A model generated the notes under the pieces. The model had not been told where the DNA came from. It saw nothing but the letters and a program-made list of their open reading frames with translations, and searched no databases. A DNA stretch of 24,285 nt from a bacterium (GTDB lineage: Bacteria > UBP15 > UBA6099 > DSWB01). The DNA is taken from positions 1 through 24,285 of the forward strand of contig JAGUYV010000397.1 of assembly GCA_020061125.1 (NCBI GenBank), written 5' to 3'. Each line of letters opens with the position of its first letter. The first letter of the stretch is position 1. Shown here piece by piece: positions 4,553 through 19,262 of this stretch. Both the position numbers and the translations under genes were made by a program.

Positions 4553-7291
4553 ATGGACGATGCCGCACAGCAGCCGCTGCCCGACAGCGCGGAGCCGATC
4601 AAGACGCGCATGCTGCGCCTGGCGTTCGAGACCGTCATGCGCCTGCAGGGCAAGCATCCGGGCCAGGTCCGGTTCCTGGCCGCGGGGCACTCGCACCTGG
4701 ACGCGGCCTGGCGCTGGCGCGCGTTCCAGACCCGTTCCAAGGCCAAGCTCACTTTCCGCAACGCCCTGCGTAATATCGAACAGTACCCCGAATTTTCATT
4801 CGCCCAGTCCTCGCCCCAGTTTTATGAATGGATGAAAGACCGCCAGCCGCGCATTTTCCGCGCCATCCAGAACGCGGCCAAGCGCGGGCGCTGGGACATC
4901 GTGGGCGGCTGCTGGATCGAGCCGGACGGAAACATGCCCGACGGCGAGTCGTTCGTGCGGCAGCGGCTCTACGGCCAGCGGTTCTACCTCGACCATTTCG
5001 GTAAGGTTTCCGAAATCGAGTGGCTGCCCGACACCTTCGGATTCGCCTGGACCCTGCCGCAGATTTTCGTGAAAAGCGGCGCCAAATATTTCTGGACCAC
5101 AAAGCTGTTGTGGAACGACACCAACAATTTCCCCCTGCGCACATTTTTGTGGCGCGGGCCGGACGGCACGGAAATCCTCACCCATGTCAGCCCCCTGTTC
5201 GGCGTCAACGCCAACGATTTCTTCCGCACCGTCAGCGCCAACCGCATTCTGCCTCCGGGCGAGGAACTCGAGGCGGACTACAGCATGAGCGAGCGGCAGA
5301 TCCGCCGCCGCCTGGACCGCAAGCCCATGCCCGAGGCGCTCATCGCCTACGGGCTTGGAGACGGCGGGGGCGGCCCCACGCCCGCGGAAATTGACATCAT
5401 GCGCACCCTCCAGGACGCGGATGTGCTGGACATCGGAACGCCCACGGAGTTTTTCTCACGCCTCGAACAGTACAGGGATCGCCTGCCCGTGTGGAACGAC
5501 GAGCTGTACCTCGAATTTCACCGCGGATGCCTCACCACGCAGGGCCTCGCCAAGCGCTACAACCGCCGCCTGGAACTCAAGGCCAGGGACGCGGAAATCG
5601 TGCATTCCATGAACTCTCTGTTCGGGGATCCGTATCCCGAGGACGAGTTGCGCGAGGTCTGGAAAACCATTCTCTTCCATCAGTTCCACGACATTCTGCC
5701 CGGTAGCTCCATCCCCGAGGTGTACGATGATGCGTACGAAGCCTACGAGCGCATCGAGACCCAGGCCAACGACCTGATCCGCGGCGGCCTCTACAGCATC
5801 GCGCGCCGCATCGCAACGCACAATCCCGCGCTCCAGGACATGGCTCCGCTCGTGGTGTACAACACCCTGTCCTGGGACCGCACCGGCGATGTGCGCCTCG
5901 AAGTCACGCCCACGCGCACGCTGCGCGTGTTCCGCGCCGACGGCTCCGAAGTGGCCGCCCAGAAGGTGGCGCTCGGCAACAGGTTCTTCGTCATGTTCAC
6001 GGTTTCGGATGTGCCAGACATGGGCTACCGCACCTACTATGTCAGGGAAGAAAAACCCGAGGCTGGCGCGCCCGAACCCGCGCCCTGGAACGAGGCCTGC
6101 GCCCCGGTCGCCGTTTCCGAATCTTCCGATGGCTCCGTGATTCTGGAAAACGAATTCCTCAAAGTCACCGTGGACGCGGCCACGGGCTGGATTTCAAGCA
6201 TCATTGACAAGGTGAATGCGCGCGAGATGCTCGACGGCCCGGCCAATGAGCTGCGCCTGTACCGCGATTCCAGCATGGTGTACCCCGCGTGGAACATTGA
6301 TCCGCATTACCGAGAAAAGGAAATCCCCATTGAGCCGCGCCCCGAAATGATCGAGGTGCGCGACCGCGGGCCTGTGGTGGGCACAGTGGCCGTGCGCCGC
6401 ATGGCGCACACTTCACCCGTGACCCAGGAAATCCGCCTCGTGGCCGGCCGACCGTTCATCTATTGCGCCACGGTGGTGGACTGGCAGGAGAAAAAGGCGC
6501 TGCTCAAAACCTGGTTCCACACAGCCATCAAGTCGGACACTGTAGCCGCGGAGATCCCTTACGGCGTGATCGAGCGGCCCACGCGCCCCCGCAGCCGCTA
6601 CGACAAAGCCCGCTGGGAAATGCCGTGCCAGAAATGGTTCGGCCTGGACGACGGCCGCTACGGCATCGCTGTGTTGAACGACGGCAAGTACGGGTTCAAT
6701 TGCGAAGGATCGTCACTGGGCCTCACACTGCTGCGCGGGCCGCGCTATCCCGCGGCCGTGGTCAACGCCTGGGGCTTGAGCGAACCCGCCAGCGACCGCC
6801 CGCGATATACGGATCAAGGCATTCATGTGATGCGCTACGCCATCTTCCCGCATTCCGGCTCGTGGCGCGACGCCAAGCTGTGGCGGCGCGGCCTGGAATT
6901 CAATGCGCCGTTCATCACCATGCGCACCAGCCACCACCAGGGCGCCATGCCGCCCCAGGGTTCGTCCCTGATCTGTGACGCCGAAACCACATACATCGCC
7001 GCCATCAAGCGCCCCGAGGACAACCCCGGCCGCCACGACGCGCGCTTCCATCAACTGGTTGTGCGCCTGGTGGAAGCAGCGGGTGAGCACGACACAGTGC
7101 GCCTCACCTTCCACGGGCCGCTCCTTGAGTTGACAGATGTCAATGATATGGATTTGCTGGAATTCAGTTCCGGAGCCGCCGGACTGGTCGAGGCCGAGCA
7201 GGGCGCTGTGACGCTCAACATGAAGCCTTTCGAAATCCGCACCATCAAGGTCACGCTCATCGGCAGCGGCCCGGATTCGCAGGACTCATGA
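4553..7291 (+). CDS. Glycoside hydrolase family 38 alpha-mannosidase
   Basis: 912 residues, a normal length for a bacterial GH38 enzyme. These are zinc-dependent retaining glycosidases that release mannose from alpha-mannosides. The catalytic domain begins with AAGHSHLDAAWRW (H46/H48/D50, the zinc-binding HxHxD of the family). WIEPDGNMPDGESFVRQ follows at 121-137, and the nucleophile region EWLPDTFGFAW has D160 as the expected catalytic aspartate. FHQFHDILPGSSIPEVYDDA near 378-397 is another GH38 signature. From about residue 430 the protein continues as the beta-sandwich domains (PLVVYNTLSWDR). There is no signal peptide, so it should be cytoplasmic and act on imported oligosaccharides; the motifs resemble the cytosolic MAN2C1-like branch. 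Substrate linkage cannot be predicted. The next gene has its own candidate promoter. Confidence 0.93.
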   Translation: MDDAAQQPLPDSAEPIKTRMLRLAFETVMRLQGKHPGQVRFLAAGHSHLDAAWRWRAFQTRSKAKLTFRNALRNIEQYPEFSFAQSSPQFYEWMKDRQPRIFRAIQNAAKRGRWDIVGGCWIEPDGNMPDGESFVRQRLYGQRFYLDHFGKVSEIEWLPDTFGFAWTLPQIFVKSGAKYFWTTKLLWNDTNNFPLRTFLWRGPDGTEILTHVSPLFGVNANDFFRTVSANRILPPGEELEADYSMSERQIRRRLDRKPMPEALIAYGLGDGGGGPTPAEIDIMRTLQDADVLDIGTPTEFFSRLEQYRDRLPVWNDELYLEFHRGCLTTQGLAKRYNRRLELKARDAEIVHSMNSLFGDPYPEDELREVWKTILFHQFHDILPGSSIPEVYDDAYEAYERIETQANDLIRGGLYSIARRIATHNPALQDMAPLVVYNTLSWDRTGDVRLEVTPTRTLRVFRADGSEVAAQKVALGNRFFVMFTVSDVPDMGYRTYYVREEKPEAGAPEPAPWNEACAPVAVSESSDGSVILENEFLKVTVDAATGWISSIIDKVNAREMLDGPANELRLYRDSSMVYPAWNIDPHYREKEIPIEPRPEMIEVRDRGPVVGTVAVRRMAHTSPVTQEIRLVAGRPFIYCATVVDWQEKKALLKTWFHTAIKSDTVAAEIPYGVIERPTRPRSRYDKARWEMPCQKWFGLDDGRYGIAVLNDGKYGFNCEGSSLGLTLLRGPRYPAAVVNAWGLSEPASDRPRYTDQGIHVMRYAIFPHSGSWRDAKLWRRGLEFNAPFITMRTSHHQGAMPPQGSSLICDAETTYIAAIKRPEDNPGRHDARFHQLVVRLVEAAGEHDTVRLTFHGPLLELTDVNDMDLLEFSSGAAGLVEAEQGAVTLNMKPFEIRTIKVTLIGSGPDSQDS

Positions 7292-7320
7292 CAGACCGCT
7301 GAACCAATCCGCAAACGCTA

Positions 7321-7349
7321 TTCCCAAGATCCCCGTTTTTGCTTACAAT
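7321..7349 (+). promoter_or_regulatory. Candidate promoter of the polysaccharide deacetylase gene
   Basis: TTCCCA, 17 bases, then TACAAT, with 4 and 5 matches to consensus, ending 44 bases before the TTG start. Spacing and position are good; the -35 is moderate. Confidence 0.4.
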
Positions 7350-7393
7350 CACATTCTGGCGGTTTATGCCGACTCCTTGTCAAGGCGCCTGAC

Positions 7394-8119
7394 TTGAAGC
7401 CAAAACTTTTTTCATCGCGTGTTACGGTGGCCGTGCTGCTTGTTCTTGCGGCCGCGGGTTTTGCGCTCCATTTGCACACGCCCGTTTTCGCGCGCCTTCA
7501 TGTGATAGGGCTGCACACCGGCCCGCGCATCATGGCCCTGACTTATGATGACGGGCCGGATCCGGCCAACACCCCCAAAATTCTGGATATGCTGGACCAG
7601 TACAACGCCAAAGCCACCTTTTTTCTGATCGGGGTCAGAGCGCAGCAGCATCCCGGCCTTGCGCGTGAAATTGCGAACCGCGGCCACGCCGTGGGCAACC
7701 ACACATGGAGCCATCCGCGCGATGTGCGCCTGCTTTCGGACAAAGATTTCGCCCTGGAGTTGTCGCGGGGCGCAGGGGCCGTGAGCCAGGCTGCCGGCCA
7801 GCCCGTGTCCCTGTTCCGCCCGCCGCGCGGTTGCGTGGACGCCCGCATTCTTTCCATGGCCTCCAGCCGCGATTTTCAGACCGTGATGTGGAATATCGCG
7901 CCAGCCCAAAAGCGCATTGGCCCGCCGGAGCGCATGGCCGCCCATGTGCGGCGATACGCTTTCCCGGGCGCCGTGATACTGCTCCACGATGGGGTGGGGC
8001 CGTTGCGTACGCGCGATGTGCGCGCCACACACCTTATTCTGCGAGATATGTCCCGCCGCGGCTACCGGTTCGTGACACTCCCCGAACTGCTCGACCATTA
8101 CCCCCGCGCGGCGCGCTGA
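7394..8119 (+). CDS. NodB-type polysaccharide deacetylase, membrane-anchored
   Basis: 241 residues from a TTG start preceded by an AAGGCG element. A hydrophobic segment at residues 10-28 should serve as signal anchor, placing the domain outside the cytoplasmic membrane. The NodB/CE4 fold is shown by motif 1 TYDDGPDP (D52/D53), motif 2 GNHTWSH with metal-binding H103 and H107, motif 3 FRPPRG (141-146), and motif 5 VILLHDG with H198. CE4 enzymes remove N- or O-acetyl groups from peptidoglycan, chitin oligomers or other glycans. Motif 3 normally reads RPPYG and motif 4 normally has a W-D pair. Here these are RPPRG and VMWNIAPAQKR, so substrate contacts may differ. No in-frame ATG fits a start that keeps the anchor. 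Confidence 0.88.
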   Translation: MKPKLFSSRVTVAVLLVLAAAGFALHLHTPVFARLHVIGLHTGPRIMALTYDDGPDPANTPKILDMLDQYNAKATFFLIGVRAQQHPGLAREIANRGHAVGNHTWSHPRDVRLLSDKDFALELSRGAGAVSQAAGQPVSLFRPPRGCVDARILSMASSRDFQTVMWNIAPAQKRIGPPERMAAHVRRYAFPGAVILLHDGVGPLRTRDVRATHLILRDMSRRGYRFVTLPELLDHYPRAAR

Positions 8120-9416: not shown

Positions 9417-9487
9417 AATTTGTTGCCGGAAAGCGACAAGCAATCTGTAAAACGCCGCTGAAAGCAGCAGTGCGTCACATTCGAATT

Positions 9488-9504
9488 GCGGGAGCAAGAC
9501 CCGC
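9488..9504 (+). other. Small hairpin in flagellin leader
   Basis: GCGGG and CCCGC with a 7-nt loop, about 180 bases before the start codon. It could be a chance structure in GC-rich sequence. Confidence 0.3.
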
Positions 9505-9685
9505 TCTCTCTAGGGTGCGGCATCGGGTGATCAGCCCGCGGTTTGGCGTATGCGCAAACCGCCGGGCAAGGGACGCGCGGCCGGGATTGGCCGGGCCGGT
9601 TTGCTGTTGCATTCCGCGCGCGCCCGCGATCAACTCTACTAAAACCGCAGCGCCGACAGGCAAACGCGGGAGAGCGAGAGAGCCC

Positions 9686-12496
9686 ATGCAAGTCACCACG
9701 AATTCCCTGCTCGGCATGCAGCAGAATAATCAGATGCGGCTCCATTTCCGGAACACCGGCACAATCAGCGAACGCCTGTCGTCCGGGATACGCATCAACA
9801 AAGGCGCGGACGACCCCAGCGGCCTCGGCATCACATCGGGCATGCGGGCCGTCATCGGCGGGCTTGAACAGGCCATCGTCAATGCTCTTGAGGGCGTCAG
9901 TATGATCCGCACCGCGGATTCTGCCCTGGCCGAAATCCATGACATCCTCATGAGGGGCCGGGATCTCGCGGTGCGCGCCGCGAACTTCGCCGTCAACACC
10001 CCGGAAGACCTTGCCCGCATGCAGGCCGAAGTGGATGCGCTCGTTTCGGAAATCGATCAAATCGCGGGCCGGGTGAAATTTAACACCAAGCAAATCATCA
10101 ATGGCGGGACCGGCACAAGTTACGACATCACCACCCAGGCAGACTGGGCCGCGGGCGCGCAGGCGCCGGCGGGCAGCCTGGACTTCACCACCACGCCCGA
10201 CTCGCTCAAGCTCGATCTCATTGACCCCACCACCATCGCCGCAAAATCCACTTTCGCTCCAAACCAGAACCGCCGCATGATGAGTATGTACATCACGGGG
10301 TATTCGGACAACGGCGACGGAACCATCAATGTCACTATGCGCGTCCGCGCGCGCAACCAGGCCGCGGGCGCTGTTGATTACAAGGGCACAATCCAGTTCC
10401 ATTCCAGCGCCACGCTTGTCAGCCTGAACGGCAATGTCAACGGCGCGGACAATACGGTCACATGGAACGCCGGAACGCAGACCCTGGACTTCAACACGGG
10501 CGCAAACCGCATTCGCTGCAACAACACATATCAGGATGAAGTGGAACTTCAACTGCGATTGACCAAGGATCCTTCTGCGCTTCAGTGGACGACCACGATG
10601 ATTGCGCCGGCTGCCAGCCCGAACACCGCGTTTTATTTCGGAACAACCCTGCTGCGCGACGGACTGCCTTCATTCACGGTCGGAGATTATCTCACGGATG
10701 TGGAATCCACGGGAACCTGGACCGGCAACGCAATCAATACCGGCAATGTCACGGGCGGCGAAGCATATTTTGCTTACAACGCGAACACATTTTCGGGAAC
10801 CCAGGTTCAAATTCAGCTCTACGAGAGCGCGGACGGGGTTGCATGGACTGCCCTGCCCAGTGTGGAGAACGGCAACACCTTCGAGTACACCAAACAGTTC
10901 CTTCGCGCCGAAGCCGTGCTCACAAGCGCCGGCACCGCCTTCGGAACGCCTGAGCTGCTCGACATTACAATTCAATTGTCGGAAGGCTCCAATCTCCAGG
11001 TCGGCCAGAACAATGTGAACGAACACCGGCTCGCGTTAAGCCCGTGGGATGCGCGCTCCACCGCACTCGGCGTCAATGGCGTGGATGTCACAGTAGAACG
11101 CAAGATTATCAAGACATACGACACGGCCACGCAACTCAACGATGGAATCGTGTCCAGCACGGACATTGACTTTATCAGTGAGCCAGGTTTCCTCCAGCTT
11201 CTTTCCCCTGTCGCCGATCAGCAACCTGCCATCGCGCAGGCGCCCGGCTCCAGGATTTATGCCGCCATCAATTCGGCATTCCAGAACCCGGACGGCACTT
11301 TCACGGTCACTATGTCCCTGACCGGATACGGCTCCGCGCCCACTCCTGGCGGCGCGCAGGCCATCGGATGGGTAGGAACCATTGATATGTTCAACGGCGA
11401 CGGGTCGCGCGTGACATTTGACACGGTGCGCAACATCAGCATGGAAGTGCCGCCGCCCGCCGCGCAGAACTGGCCCATCAATCCCGGCTCCACTTCCAAC
11501 ACCAACGATGTGAACTTCGTGGACTCCAACGGCGACCTCGTGGCCGACACCTATGTGGGCGGCGGGTCCAACGGTTCCATCAGCGGCACCTATTCCCGCA
11601 TCTTCTTTGATTGGGGCACCACAAGCGCGCAGGACGGCGTGGAGTTCACCTTCACATGCGATCCCGACGCCTACATTAATGTGAATTTCAACTGTGTCGG
11701 CTTCTCGGCGAATCACACCACGACCACGAATGAGATCTGCGATGTCTATTTCCAGCAGAATCTTGTGGCGGACAATGTGGACGGCGTGGCAGGGGCATTC
11801 AATTTCGTGCGCAGGCTGCAGGAGTACGGAACCCCTGCGGGCGGGGTGCCGCCCAGTCCGCCAACGGGCCAGTTTACCACAGGCGCGTTTTATTTCGGGG
11901 CCAACTCCACGGGATTCCTCGAATCATCGCAGACACTCAACGGCGGCAGCGTGGCCTACACCGTGCAGGAAAGCGAAACCGGCGCGGGCGGCTGGAACAA
12001 TATCGCCGTGGACCCTGCCACAGGACAGTTCGCCACAGGCGCAACGGGCAAGTATCTGCGCATCATCGGTGATGTCACGGGCGTGGCGGCGGCATCTTCC
12101 ATCGGACCGGGCAACGCCGCTTACAATTACACGCAATCCACCACTCCGGTGGTGGACTATATGCGCGTGACCAAGGACACCAACGCCATCGCGGATTTCT
12201 CCGAAGCCATTGAGCGGGTGTCCCAGTTGCGGGCCGATATCGGAATCATCGAAAAGCGCCTGCTCCATGTGGTCGAGGATTTGACCATCGAGCGCATGAA
12301 CCTCATCAGCGCCAAGTCCACCCTCATGGATGTCAACATGGCCGTGGAAGCCGCCGAGCTGGTCAAGCAGCAGATCCTGAATGATTCCACCACTGCGGTT
12401 AAGGCCCAGGGCGATCCGTTCCTGCAGGCGGTTCTTGATCTGCAACGCGAGCACAATGTGGGACGCCACGAAATCAAGATGGTGAGCGAGCAATAA
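9686..12496 (+). CDS. Flagellin with a very large duplicated central insert
   Basis: 936 residues from the ATG beginning MQVTTNSLLGMQQNNQ, about twice a common flagellin. The conserved D0/D1 N-terminus (1 to about 140) carries typical motifs: RLSSGIRINKGADDPSGLGI, LEGVSMIRTADSALAEIHDI and VKFNTKQIINGG. The conserved C-terminus (about 825-936) has NLISAKSTLMDVNMAVEAAE and VKQQILNDSTTAVKAQ. Between them lie about 680 residues of Thr/Gly/Asn-rich beta-type sequence that would form surface D2/D3 domains. The insert reads as two modules repeated in order A-B-A'-B' (about 165-320, 341-435, 494-690, 727-825). The protein should be exported by the flagellar system and polymerise into the filament. 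It has a sigma28-like promoter and a strong terminator, so it is monocistronic. No other flagellar gene is in the window. An upstream in-frame start at 9470 is rejected. Confidence 0.9.
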   Translation: MQVTTNSLLGMQQNNQMRLHFRNTGTISERLSSGIRINKGADDPSGLGITSGMRAVIGGLEQAIVNALEGVSMIRTADSALAEIHDILMRGRDLAVRAANFAVNTPEDLARMQAEVDALVSEIDQIAGRVKFNTKQIINGGTGTSYDITTQADWAAGAQAPAGSLDFTTTPDSLKLDLIDPTTIAAKSTFAPNQNRRMMSMYITGYSDNGDGTINVTMRVRARNQAAGAVDYKGTIQFHSSATLVSLNGNVNGADNTVTWNAGTQTLDFNTGANRIRCNNTYQDEVELQLRLTKDPSALQWTTTMIAPAASPNTAFYFGTTLLRDGLPSFTVGDYLTDVESTGTWTGNAINTGNVTGGEAYFAYNANTFSGTQVQIQLYESADGVAWTALPSVENGNTFEYTKQFLRAEAVLTSAGTAFGTPELLDITIQLSEGSNLQVGQNNVNEHRLALSPWDARSTALGVNGVDVTVERKIIKTYDTATQLNDGIVSSTDIDFISEPGFLQLLSPVADQQPAIAQAPGSRIYAAINSAFQNPDGTFTVTMSLTGYGSAPTPGGAQAIGWVGTIDMFNGDGSRVTFDTVRNISMEVPPPAAQNWPINPGSTSNTNDVNFVDSNGDLVADTYVGGGSNGSISGTYSRIFFDWGTTSAQDGVEFTFTCDPDAYINVNFNCVGFSANHTTTTNEICDVYFQQNLVADNVDGVAGAFNFVRRLQEYGTPAGGVPPSPPTGQFTTGAFYFGANSTGFLESSQTLNGGSVAYTVQESETGAGGWNNIAVDPATGQFATGATGKYLRIIGDVTGVAAASSIGPGNAAYNYTQSTTPVVDYMRVTKDTNAIADFSEAIERVSQLRADIGIIEKRLLHVVEDLTIERMNLISAKSTLMDVNMAVEAAELVKQQILNDSTTAVKAQGDPFLQAVLDLQREHNVGRHEIKMVSEQ

Positions 12497-17289: not shown

Positions 17290-17318
17290 TGTCTTGACCG
17301 CCATCTGGGAGTTGCTCC

Positions 17319-19262
17319 ATGCCTGACAAGCTATTGACTGCCGCCGAAGTTCTGGATTACATGAATATAGACAAGGAGGCTCTTATTGCGCTTATCCGTA
17401 ATGAAAACATGCCCTTCCTGCGCATTGGAAAGCAGGTGAGATTCAGGCCAGAAGATCTTGAACCCTGGCTGGAAACCAGGCGCGTGTCCGCAAGCACCGA
17501 CCCCGAATGCCCGGTGCTGGTGGAGTCCGCCCTGGGAATCGCCGCTGACTCAAGAGAGCGCAGCACCGGGGGTAATGCGCCGCGCAGCCAGAGAAACGCA
17601 TCCGCGAAGGCCTTAAGTTCTGAAGCAACCAGTATTTCCGAAACAAAACAACAGCCGGAACAGCCGCAAAAGACAACCGAAAAATCAGTCTGCGAACCCA
17701 TGCCGATAACGGATCCATTTCTCATTTATCAAGAGGGCAACGCACTTGCGCTGAAGATATTTGCATCCAGGGCGGCGCAAAAGCAAATACACATAATTTC
17801 TTCAATAATTGGCACCCTGTATCCGGAAGAACCCGTTGAGTCATTGGTTGCCTCGGCATTAGCATCATCTGGACAGCCTGTAATTATTGGTGTCCTACCT
17901 CCGTGTCTCAACTCCATCCTTAATATAATTGTCACCAGTGACAAGCAATATGCCTTTTATATTATTAATCGTGTCAAAATCGTGACGGATATAACGCCTA
18001 GGGACGAGTTGCTTGAAGCCCTGGCTGAAATGCGGATCCGCCATGGCATCAACACCGGGGCCATAGGCAATGCGAACCACCCGGATGCGCCCGGCAAGCT
18101 CATGCTTGTCGCAAGAGGAACGCTCCCCAAGGTTATGGGCAAGCCGGAATTAAAGGTCCATTTCAAGACCCCTCGAACATTCAATCCCAAGGACATCGAA
18201 AGCCTTGGTGATGAAAAAGACACAACTCAAAACTTTCCCGCATGTCACAAGGATGAGGTCCTTGCGGAGGTTGTCAGCGCTGGACTATCTCGAAATGGGA
18301 TAGATGTTTACGGCAATATCGTGACATCTGATGATGCAGACGGCCCCTTGCTTAAAAGCGGTCCTAACACATATTTCTCCAGTGACAGATCCCGGATTCA
18401 CGCGTCTTGTGACGGAATTCCGTATTGGAAGGGGCGCGCGATCTGTGTGGACAACACCTTGATTCTTGATGGGGTGGGATATGAAACGGGCAATATTCAG
18501 GCTGGCGGCCGTATGGTGATTCAGGGGAATGTGCAAAGCGGATTCTCCATTGATGCGTTACGGAAAGTCATAATAAAAGGGCAGGTGGATGCCGCCACAG
18601 TCAGATCCCGGAAGAGCAGCATCAGCGTGCTTCAAGGGATTCATGGCAACGACAAGGCCATGCTTGTGGCCGGCTCCAGCATCCAAGCAGCTTTTGCAAC
18701 AGGCTGCACTCTTGAGGCGGGCATGAATATTATTGTGGACACATCCATCGTAAGATGCAATGCCAGTGCCTTCAAAAGCATAAAACTTCGGGACGAAGGG
18801 TCCAGGGTTGTATCCAGCACACTTGCCGCGGGCCGTTGCATAAGCGTGGGGTCATGCGGCACGAAAAGTCAGTTGCGGACCACCCTGAAAGTGCAAATCC
18901 CATCAGACGACTGTTCCGGGTTCGAAAAGGAACGCCTTGAAAAACAAATTATCGAAACCAGAAATAAAATAAGCCAGCAGAAAAGCTGCATTTTCAGGCT
19001 TCGGGAGCAGAAGTCCAGCGCAGTGGAACCGGAGCGCAGGCAACTTCAGAGATTAGAGAAGCGGCTTTCCAAACAGGAATCCGCGCTCGAAACCTTTTAT
19101 CAATGGCTCAAGGATTCGGATACAATATATATTGATGTGCGCGAGACCGCCTGGCCCGGCACGGTTATCGGGATTGAAGACAAAGAGTTGCGAATTAGGA
19201 AACCTTTATACGGGCAGCGTTTCTATTACACCCATTCCGGAATATTGCATAAAGACATCTGA
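17319..19262 (+). CDS. FapA (DUF342) family protein with N-terminal excisionase-type HTH
   Basis: 647 residues with GGGAG eight bases before the ATG. Residues 1-55 form an excisionase/MerR-type winged helix: LLTAAEVLDYMNIDKEALIA, then MPFLRIGKQVRFRPEDLEPWL. Residues 56-130 are a polar linker. Residues 130-200 (IYQEGNALALKIFASRAAQK onward) match nothing I know. Residues about 200-285 look like the FapA N-terminal domain (ITPRDELLEALAEMRIRHGI, LMLVARGTLPKVMG). Residues about 300-520 form the FapA beta-helix with repeated turns (GYETGNIQAGGRMVIQGNV, DALRKVIIKGQVDAATVRS). Residues 533-598 are a charged coiled coil. FapA proteins are conserved but poorly understood, with links to polymer scaffolding and flagellar or cell-surface control. 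A DNA-binding head on this scaffold is unusual. Base and codon use (many ATA, ATT and AAT codons) differ from the neighbours, which suggests acquisition. Confidence 0.85.
   Translation: MPDKLLTAAEVLDYMNIDKEALIALIRNENMPFLRIGKQVRFRPEDLEPWLETRRVSASTDPECPVLVESALGIAADSRERSTGGNAPRSQRNASAKALSSEATSISETKQQPEQPQKTTEKSVCEPMPITDPFLIYQEGNALALKIFASRAAQKQIHIISSIIGTLYPEEPVESLVASALASSGQPVIIGVLPPCLNSILNIIVTSDKQYAFYIINRVKIVTDITPRDELLEALAEMRIRHGINTGAIGNANHPDAPGKLMLVARGTLPKVMGKPELKVHFKTPRTFNPKDIESLGDEKDTTQNFPACHKDEVLAEVVSAGLSRNGIDVYGNIVTSDDADGPLLKSGPNTYFSSDRSRIHASCDGIPYWKGRAICVDNTLILDGVGYETGNIQAGGRMVIQGNVQSGFSIDALRKVIIKGQVDAATVRSRKSSISVLQGIHGNDKAMLVAGSSIQAAFATGCTLEAGMNIIVDTSIVRCNASAFKSIKLRDEGSRVVSSTLAAGRCISVGSCGTKSQLRTTLKVQIPSDDCSGFEKERLEKQIIETRNKISQQKSCIFRLREQKSSAVEPERRQLQRLEKRLSKQESALETFYQWLKDSDTIYIDVRETAWPGTVIGIEDKELRIRKPLYGQRFYYTHSGILHKDI

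Follow-up and report, generated by a model that had tools for sequence, protein, structure and literature searches.

A FapA scaffold protein with an N-terminal excisionase/MerR-type winged-helix head in one small bacterial order

We analysed a bacterial DNA stretch of 24,285 nucleotides (the window) and found that its open reading frame at 17319-19262 encodes a FapA protein with an N-terminal excisionase/MerR-type winged helix-turn-helix (wHTH) head. The frame is intact: it starts with ATG at 17319, its stop codon ends at 19262, and an in-frame stop lies just upstream. The gene stands alone, between DUF2284 and a SpoU-type methylase on the other strand. As for function, we tentatively favor the reading that the tethered wHTH docks a cytoplasmic FapA scaffold on DNA, with a probability of about 0.42. 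The features of the gene are as follows.

17307..17311, + strand: GGGAG, read from the sequence as a probable ribosome-binding site; 7 nt separate it from the ATG.
17319..19262, + strand: headed FapA gene, 647 residues (open reading frame; Pfam and NCBIfam; same architecture in the homologues of genomes G001 and G006).
17331..17483, + strand: winged-HTH head (HTH_17/excise), residues 5-55 (profiles, structure models, Xis/RacA/BldC/RdfS neighbors).
17508..17711, + strand: disordered polar linker, residues 64-131 (pLDDT below 50; 23% identity to the nearest relative).
17712..17906, + strand: beta-beta-alpha-alpha-beta module, residues 132-196, duplicating the first part of FapA_N (hhalign; also in headless FapA).
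17913..18428, + strand: FapA_N, residues 199-370, its first part (199-270) being the second module copy (Pfam, structure model, hhalign).
18447..18905, + strand: FapA beta-solenoid, residues 377-529, resembling the MinC C-domain (Pfam, structure model).
18912..19112, + strand: antiparallel coiled-coil hairpin, residues 532-598 (structure model).
19128..19256, + strand: C-terminal strands packing on the solenoid, residues 604-646 (structure model, MinC superposition).

The head, which the initial annotation had described as an excisionase/MerR-type HTH, was recognized by two profiles. HTH_17 matched residues 5-55 with 33.3 bits (E 6.1e-8; Pfam cut-off 27), and TIGR01764 (excise) matched residues 5-52 above the NCBIfam cut-off (E 4e-8). 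The corresponding head of the G001 relative also exceeded the cut-off, at 41.5 bits, and that of the G006 homologue reached only 21 bits. An AlphaFold model of the whole protein, built with an alignment of 28 relatives (mean pLDDT 81.5, pTM 0.52), predicted a winged helix at residues 8-60, mostly with pLDDT above 90; the low pTM means that the placement of the head relative to the body is not predicted, as expected from the linker. Modeled alone, the head was again predicted to fold as a wHTH (pLDDT 81), and the models gave the order H-H-beta-beta-H, with helices at 8-15, 19-28, and 44-58 and strands at 34-36 and 39-42.

The nearest PDB structures to the head model found by Foldseek were Pukovnik Xis, the GIsul2 excisionase, RacA, BldC, and RdfS, with E values of 0.06-0.2, which are weak in themselves at 60 residues, and probabilities of 0.99-1.00. 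A second structural aligner gave Z scores from 8.5 to 5 against wHTHs of the Xis/RacA/BldC/RdfS kind, and 8.0 against excisionase 8c3t. The complex of CbpM and the CbpA J-domain was also among the neighbors (3ucs, Z 6.5). A sequence search of the PDB gave no match for the head and, for the whole family, mostly coiled-coil matches. Since the profile matches and the structural neighbors agree, the wHTH fold predicted for the head is well supported.

The polar linker and the complete FapA scaffold with a coiled coil, both of which the initial annotation had proposed, were also recovered. Residues 64-131 were disordered in the AlphaFold model (pLDDT below 50), followed by two predicted beta-beta-alpha-alpha-beta units at 134-192 and 201-266, the beta-solenoid, the coiled-coil hairpin at 532-598, and the C-terminal strands. 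FapA_N (PF20250) matched residues 202-370 with 65 bits (E 5.3e-18; cut-off 27), and FapA (PF03961) matched residues 380-636 with 140 bits (E 1.4e-40; cut-off 31). AlphaFold2 is reportedly overconfident on beta-solenoids built from repeat sequences (PMC11795689); the assignment of the solenoid survives this caveat because the Pfam match also supports the domain.

In contrast, residues of about 130-200, suspected to form a new domain, turned out to be a duplicated FapA_N module that is ordinary for the family, as judged from sequence. When residues 132-196 were compared with the opening part of FapA_N (residues 199-270), hhalign gave a probability of 96.4% over 63 columns, whereas five other stretches of the family alignment scored 0.1-0.6%. 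The extra module also precedes FapA_N in headless FapA proteins of Bacillota, Synergistota, and others. The novelty of the domain was thus ruled out by both the profile match and its presence in headless proteins.

The modeled solenoid and C-terminal strands superposed on MinC (4v02_C) with a Z score of 10.5 and an rmsd of 2.2 over 99 residues. In Pfam, the MinC_C profile did not match the window protein, and its matches in sister FapA proteins were weak and below the cut-off. Because of the superposition on the MinC C-domain, the predicted solenoid suggests a putative partner of the MinD/FlhG type.

Subsequently, the distribution of the headed architecture was examined. The source genome (4.1 Mb in 513 contigs, 79% complete) contains 12 FapA frames, and at least three of its FapA genes are headed. 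One is the paralogue L011 on contig C438 (496-597), whose head lacks the wing. In another case, a head (L079) lies at the end of contig C231, and a matching FapA body (L007) opens contig C333; these are probably one gene split over the contig ends, which do not overlap. Of the order's six other genomes, two (G001 and G006) have one headed FapA each and four (G002-G005) have none, so that the architecture is present in three families of one small order, that of the source included. Close relatives of the order's FapA proteins occur in bacterium UBP15_UBA6099 and in ADurb.Bin236, among others.

The head is conserved across genomes, a point that the initial annotation had proposed to check. Its identity to the head of the G001 relative is 47%, compared with 22-50% for the body and 23% for the linker, which supports, at the sequence level, that it has been retained to the same degree as the remaining protein. 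In a tree of 50 FapA proteins built with no bootstrap, the five headed proteins formed one clade (SH-aLRT 97), and a single headed clade fits one fusion event.

Outside the order, no fusion of the head with FapA was found among about 480 genomes, not every FapA being scored in all of them. No case outside the order turned up in 60 genomes in which all candidates were scored, in five further phylum-wide searches of FapA-bearing phyla (19, 3, 2, 14, and 2 genomes), or in 386 genomes in which at most three candidates each were scored, so that rare fusions may have escaped there. Nor did 80 named FapA loci, selected with a single FapA motif, show the fusion outside the order, and the heads met beyond the order were separate small ORFs. 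Our local head profile had included the headed sequences, which inflates its E values for them; hence, the Pfam values are given here. The idea that the fusion is common across bacteria was accordingly rejected for the genomes and named loci searched, and no description of it was found in the literature searched. The FapA family and the wHTH are both already known; their fusion was, in the genomes searched, limited to one lineage.

Two further observations were made in these searches. On G215:C156, a small stand-alone HTH gene (5237-5422) precedes a FapA match (6732-8108) on the same strand by about 1.3 kb and is possibly an unfused counterpart. In the phylum of G289 (19 genomes; G386-G402), each genome has many FapA genes, none of them headed, and many of these genes are tandem FapA repeats whose frames span 1000-2100 residues.

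With regard to origin, the GC3 of the window gene is 0.55, versus 0.73-0.87 in 16 neighboring genes and at least 0.75 in the other FapA paralogues. This composition hints that the gene may be a later arrival of foreign origin. A mobile-element origin was rejected, no flanking tRNA or terminal repeats being present, and the plasmids and phages searched gave no headed match. FapA-like proteins were seen in fecal contigs labeled as phage (H9-H14), which are probably bacterial DNA. The low GC3, the patchy occurrence (not in G002-G005), a long branch in the FapA tree, and the half head of one paralogue could be explained if the gene were a drifting, perhaps horizontally acquired paralogue whose head is vestigial and has no distinct function. 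However, the 647-residue frame is intact, the head is conserved like the solenoid at 47% identity to that of G001, and three families have the architecture in common; we consider this explanation very unlikely.

The residues expected to contact DNA were then compared with those of BldC. The placement of the BldC numbering rests on our own alignment to the BldC sequence, checked against the residues named in PMC5859096. In BldC, base and backbone contacts are made by Lys26, Thr27, Thr29, Arg30, and Lys33 together with wing residues, and the R30A substitution abolishes DNA binding (PMC5859096). The equivalents of Lys26, Thr27, Thr29, and Arg30 in the window protein are E20, A21, I23, and A24, which do not match; R27, matching Lys33, is the sole recognition-helix contact retained. 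Among the five heads, one has a Thr27 equivalent and one a basic residue at the Arg30 position; in 23 other HTH_17 domains from this order, the counts are 21 (p 0.003) and 16 (p 0.06), respectively. These p values are rough, some of the 23 domains being orthologues. The basic wing was kept as VRFR, TRFR, or VKFR (VRFR in the window protein), and the head of the window protein, with 9 K+R versus 10 D+E, is not positively charged overall. The head of the C438 paralogue shows the reverse of the window protein: it has lost the wing and the third helix and kept the recognition-helix Thr and Arg. Because the residues by which BldC grips DNA are mostly lost, though the basic wing is kept, sequence-specific DNA binding by the head appears doubtful from these comparisons.

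This bears on whether the protein might be a sequence-specific transcription regulator. The wHTH would then bind promoters, possibly that of its own gene, and the FapA body would sense a cellular state, such as how far a polar or flagellar scaffold is occupied. An N-terminal HTH_17 is found in classical regulators, and the headed gene of G001 comes after a gene for a SpoIIE phosphatase sensor in the same orientation. Elsewhere, FapA has a link to flagellar control: in the flagellar superoperon, fapA and sigma-28 share a sub-module next to flhF/flhG (PMC11607428). Nevertheless, besides the loss of base-reading residues, no operator-like repeats stood out upstream of the gene, and a promoter scan gave no signal above chance. 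No neighboring genes were conserved between genomes and the window gene stands alone; an operon-based function was rejected on this ground. A regulator of this kind is therefore quite unlikely in our estimation.

Alternatively, the head may be a protein-docking winged helix that recruits the FapA scaffold to a partner or regulates that partner, as in the case of the MerR-like CbpM with the CbpA J-domain. Eroded DNA-contact residues in a head whose fold, wing, and core are kept would agree with this, as would the CbpM-CbpA complex among the structural neighbors and the paralogue without a wing. In addition, Vibrio FapA acts through protein partners: it binds dephosphorylated EIIAGlc (PMC6877527), and HubP recruits it to the pole, according to a title cited in that paper. 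On the other hand, the wing is still basic and canonical, the structural neighbors are mostly DNA binders, and no partner is known. We consider protein docking somewhat unlikely.

Docking on DNA by the tethered head, the reading we prefer, is favored by a head that passes the profile cut-offs, is predicted to fold as a wHTH nearest to DNA binders, and keeps its wing. It is also favored by conservation of the head at least like that of the body while the linker drifts, all in one clade, and by the signaling context of other FapA paralogues in the genome, described below. The eroded recognition contacts, the lack of net positive charge, the lost wing in C438, and the absence of conserved neighbors and operator-like repeats weaken it. 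A link of the head to DNA thus stays plausible but weakened. In the proposed mechanism, a flexible tether of about 70 residues would connect an Xis/MerR-type winged helix to a cytoplasmic FapA scaffold. The body of this scaffold, made of two small modules, solenoid, and coiled coil, would self-assemble or bind partners like other FapA proteins, and the head would dock the assembly on DNA mainly via the basic wing and the DNA backbone, several heads per assembly giving avidity. Such a head would be an architectural wHTH in the manner of RacA or Xis, less a sequence-specific repressor, and would link a signaling or polar scaffold to the chromosome. A further reading, quite doubtful, is that a FapA polymer or assembly uses its many tethered winged helices to hold on to the chromosome or to a group of loci.

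Comparison with known systems places the protein as follows. FapA_N, solenoid, coiled-coil hairpin, and C-terminal strands match FapA/DUF342 (PF03961 and PF20250), in which the duplicated N-terminal module is common; the added wHTH and 70-residue linker were found only in this order among the FapA proteins searched. The fold, element order, and basic wing are common to the head and the Xis/BldC/RdfS/RacA wHTHs (HTH_17, TIGR01764), whereas the recognition-helix Thr and Arg are mostly lost, and the head is fused to a FapA body where other excisionase/MerR wHTHs stand alone or carry a sensor. RacA, a chromosome-anchoring protein, also combines a wHTH with a coiled coil, and its proposed link between DNA and a polar structure resembles the putative one here; however, it has no FapA body, and the sequence relationship is limited to the wHTH. 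Compared with the MinC C-terminal domain, the FapA solenoid is longer and has an inserted coiled coil.

The other FapA genes give the context. The window gene is not placed in a flagellar gene cluster beside an FlhG-type ATPase, and another paralogue, L001 on contig C330, lies near a MinD/ParA-type ATPase in the position of flagellar FapA; L001 is likely the flagellar FapA of the source genome. A flagellin-like frame of 1008 residues was noted by eye at 9470-12496 of the window; a variable insert of great length separates its conserved ends. C-terminal response-regulator receivers were seen on FapA proteins of the source genome (L005, L008) and of G001 (L041, L070, L091), which would be used as two-component outputs or scaffolds. 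L005 adjoins CheB, L008 adjoins an Hpt gene, and L009 follows a sigma-54 response regulator. Because paralogues bear receiver tails or adjoin such genes, FapA appears to be a modular scaffold here; we infer that it was made into a signaling scaffold in the source genome, the headed clade being one branch. HTH_17 heads on other bodies were also read by eye in the source genome (L073, L074), one body being a CheY-like receiver and one a short C-terminal domain after a Pro-rich linker.

FapA is widespread and its biochemistry is little known, and a head of the DNA-binding type offers a handle on the role of the body. The polymer reading, if true, would represent a new kind of linker between DNA and a scaffold. 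The receiver-tailed paralogues suggest a general scaffold for regulatory inputs, beyond flagella; if this is true, a candidate phylum would have turned FapA into a general signaling scaffold with interchangeable heads and tails.
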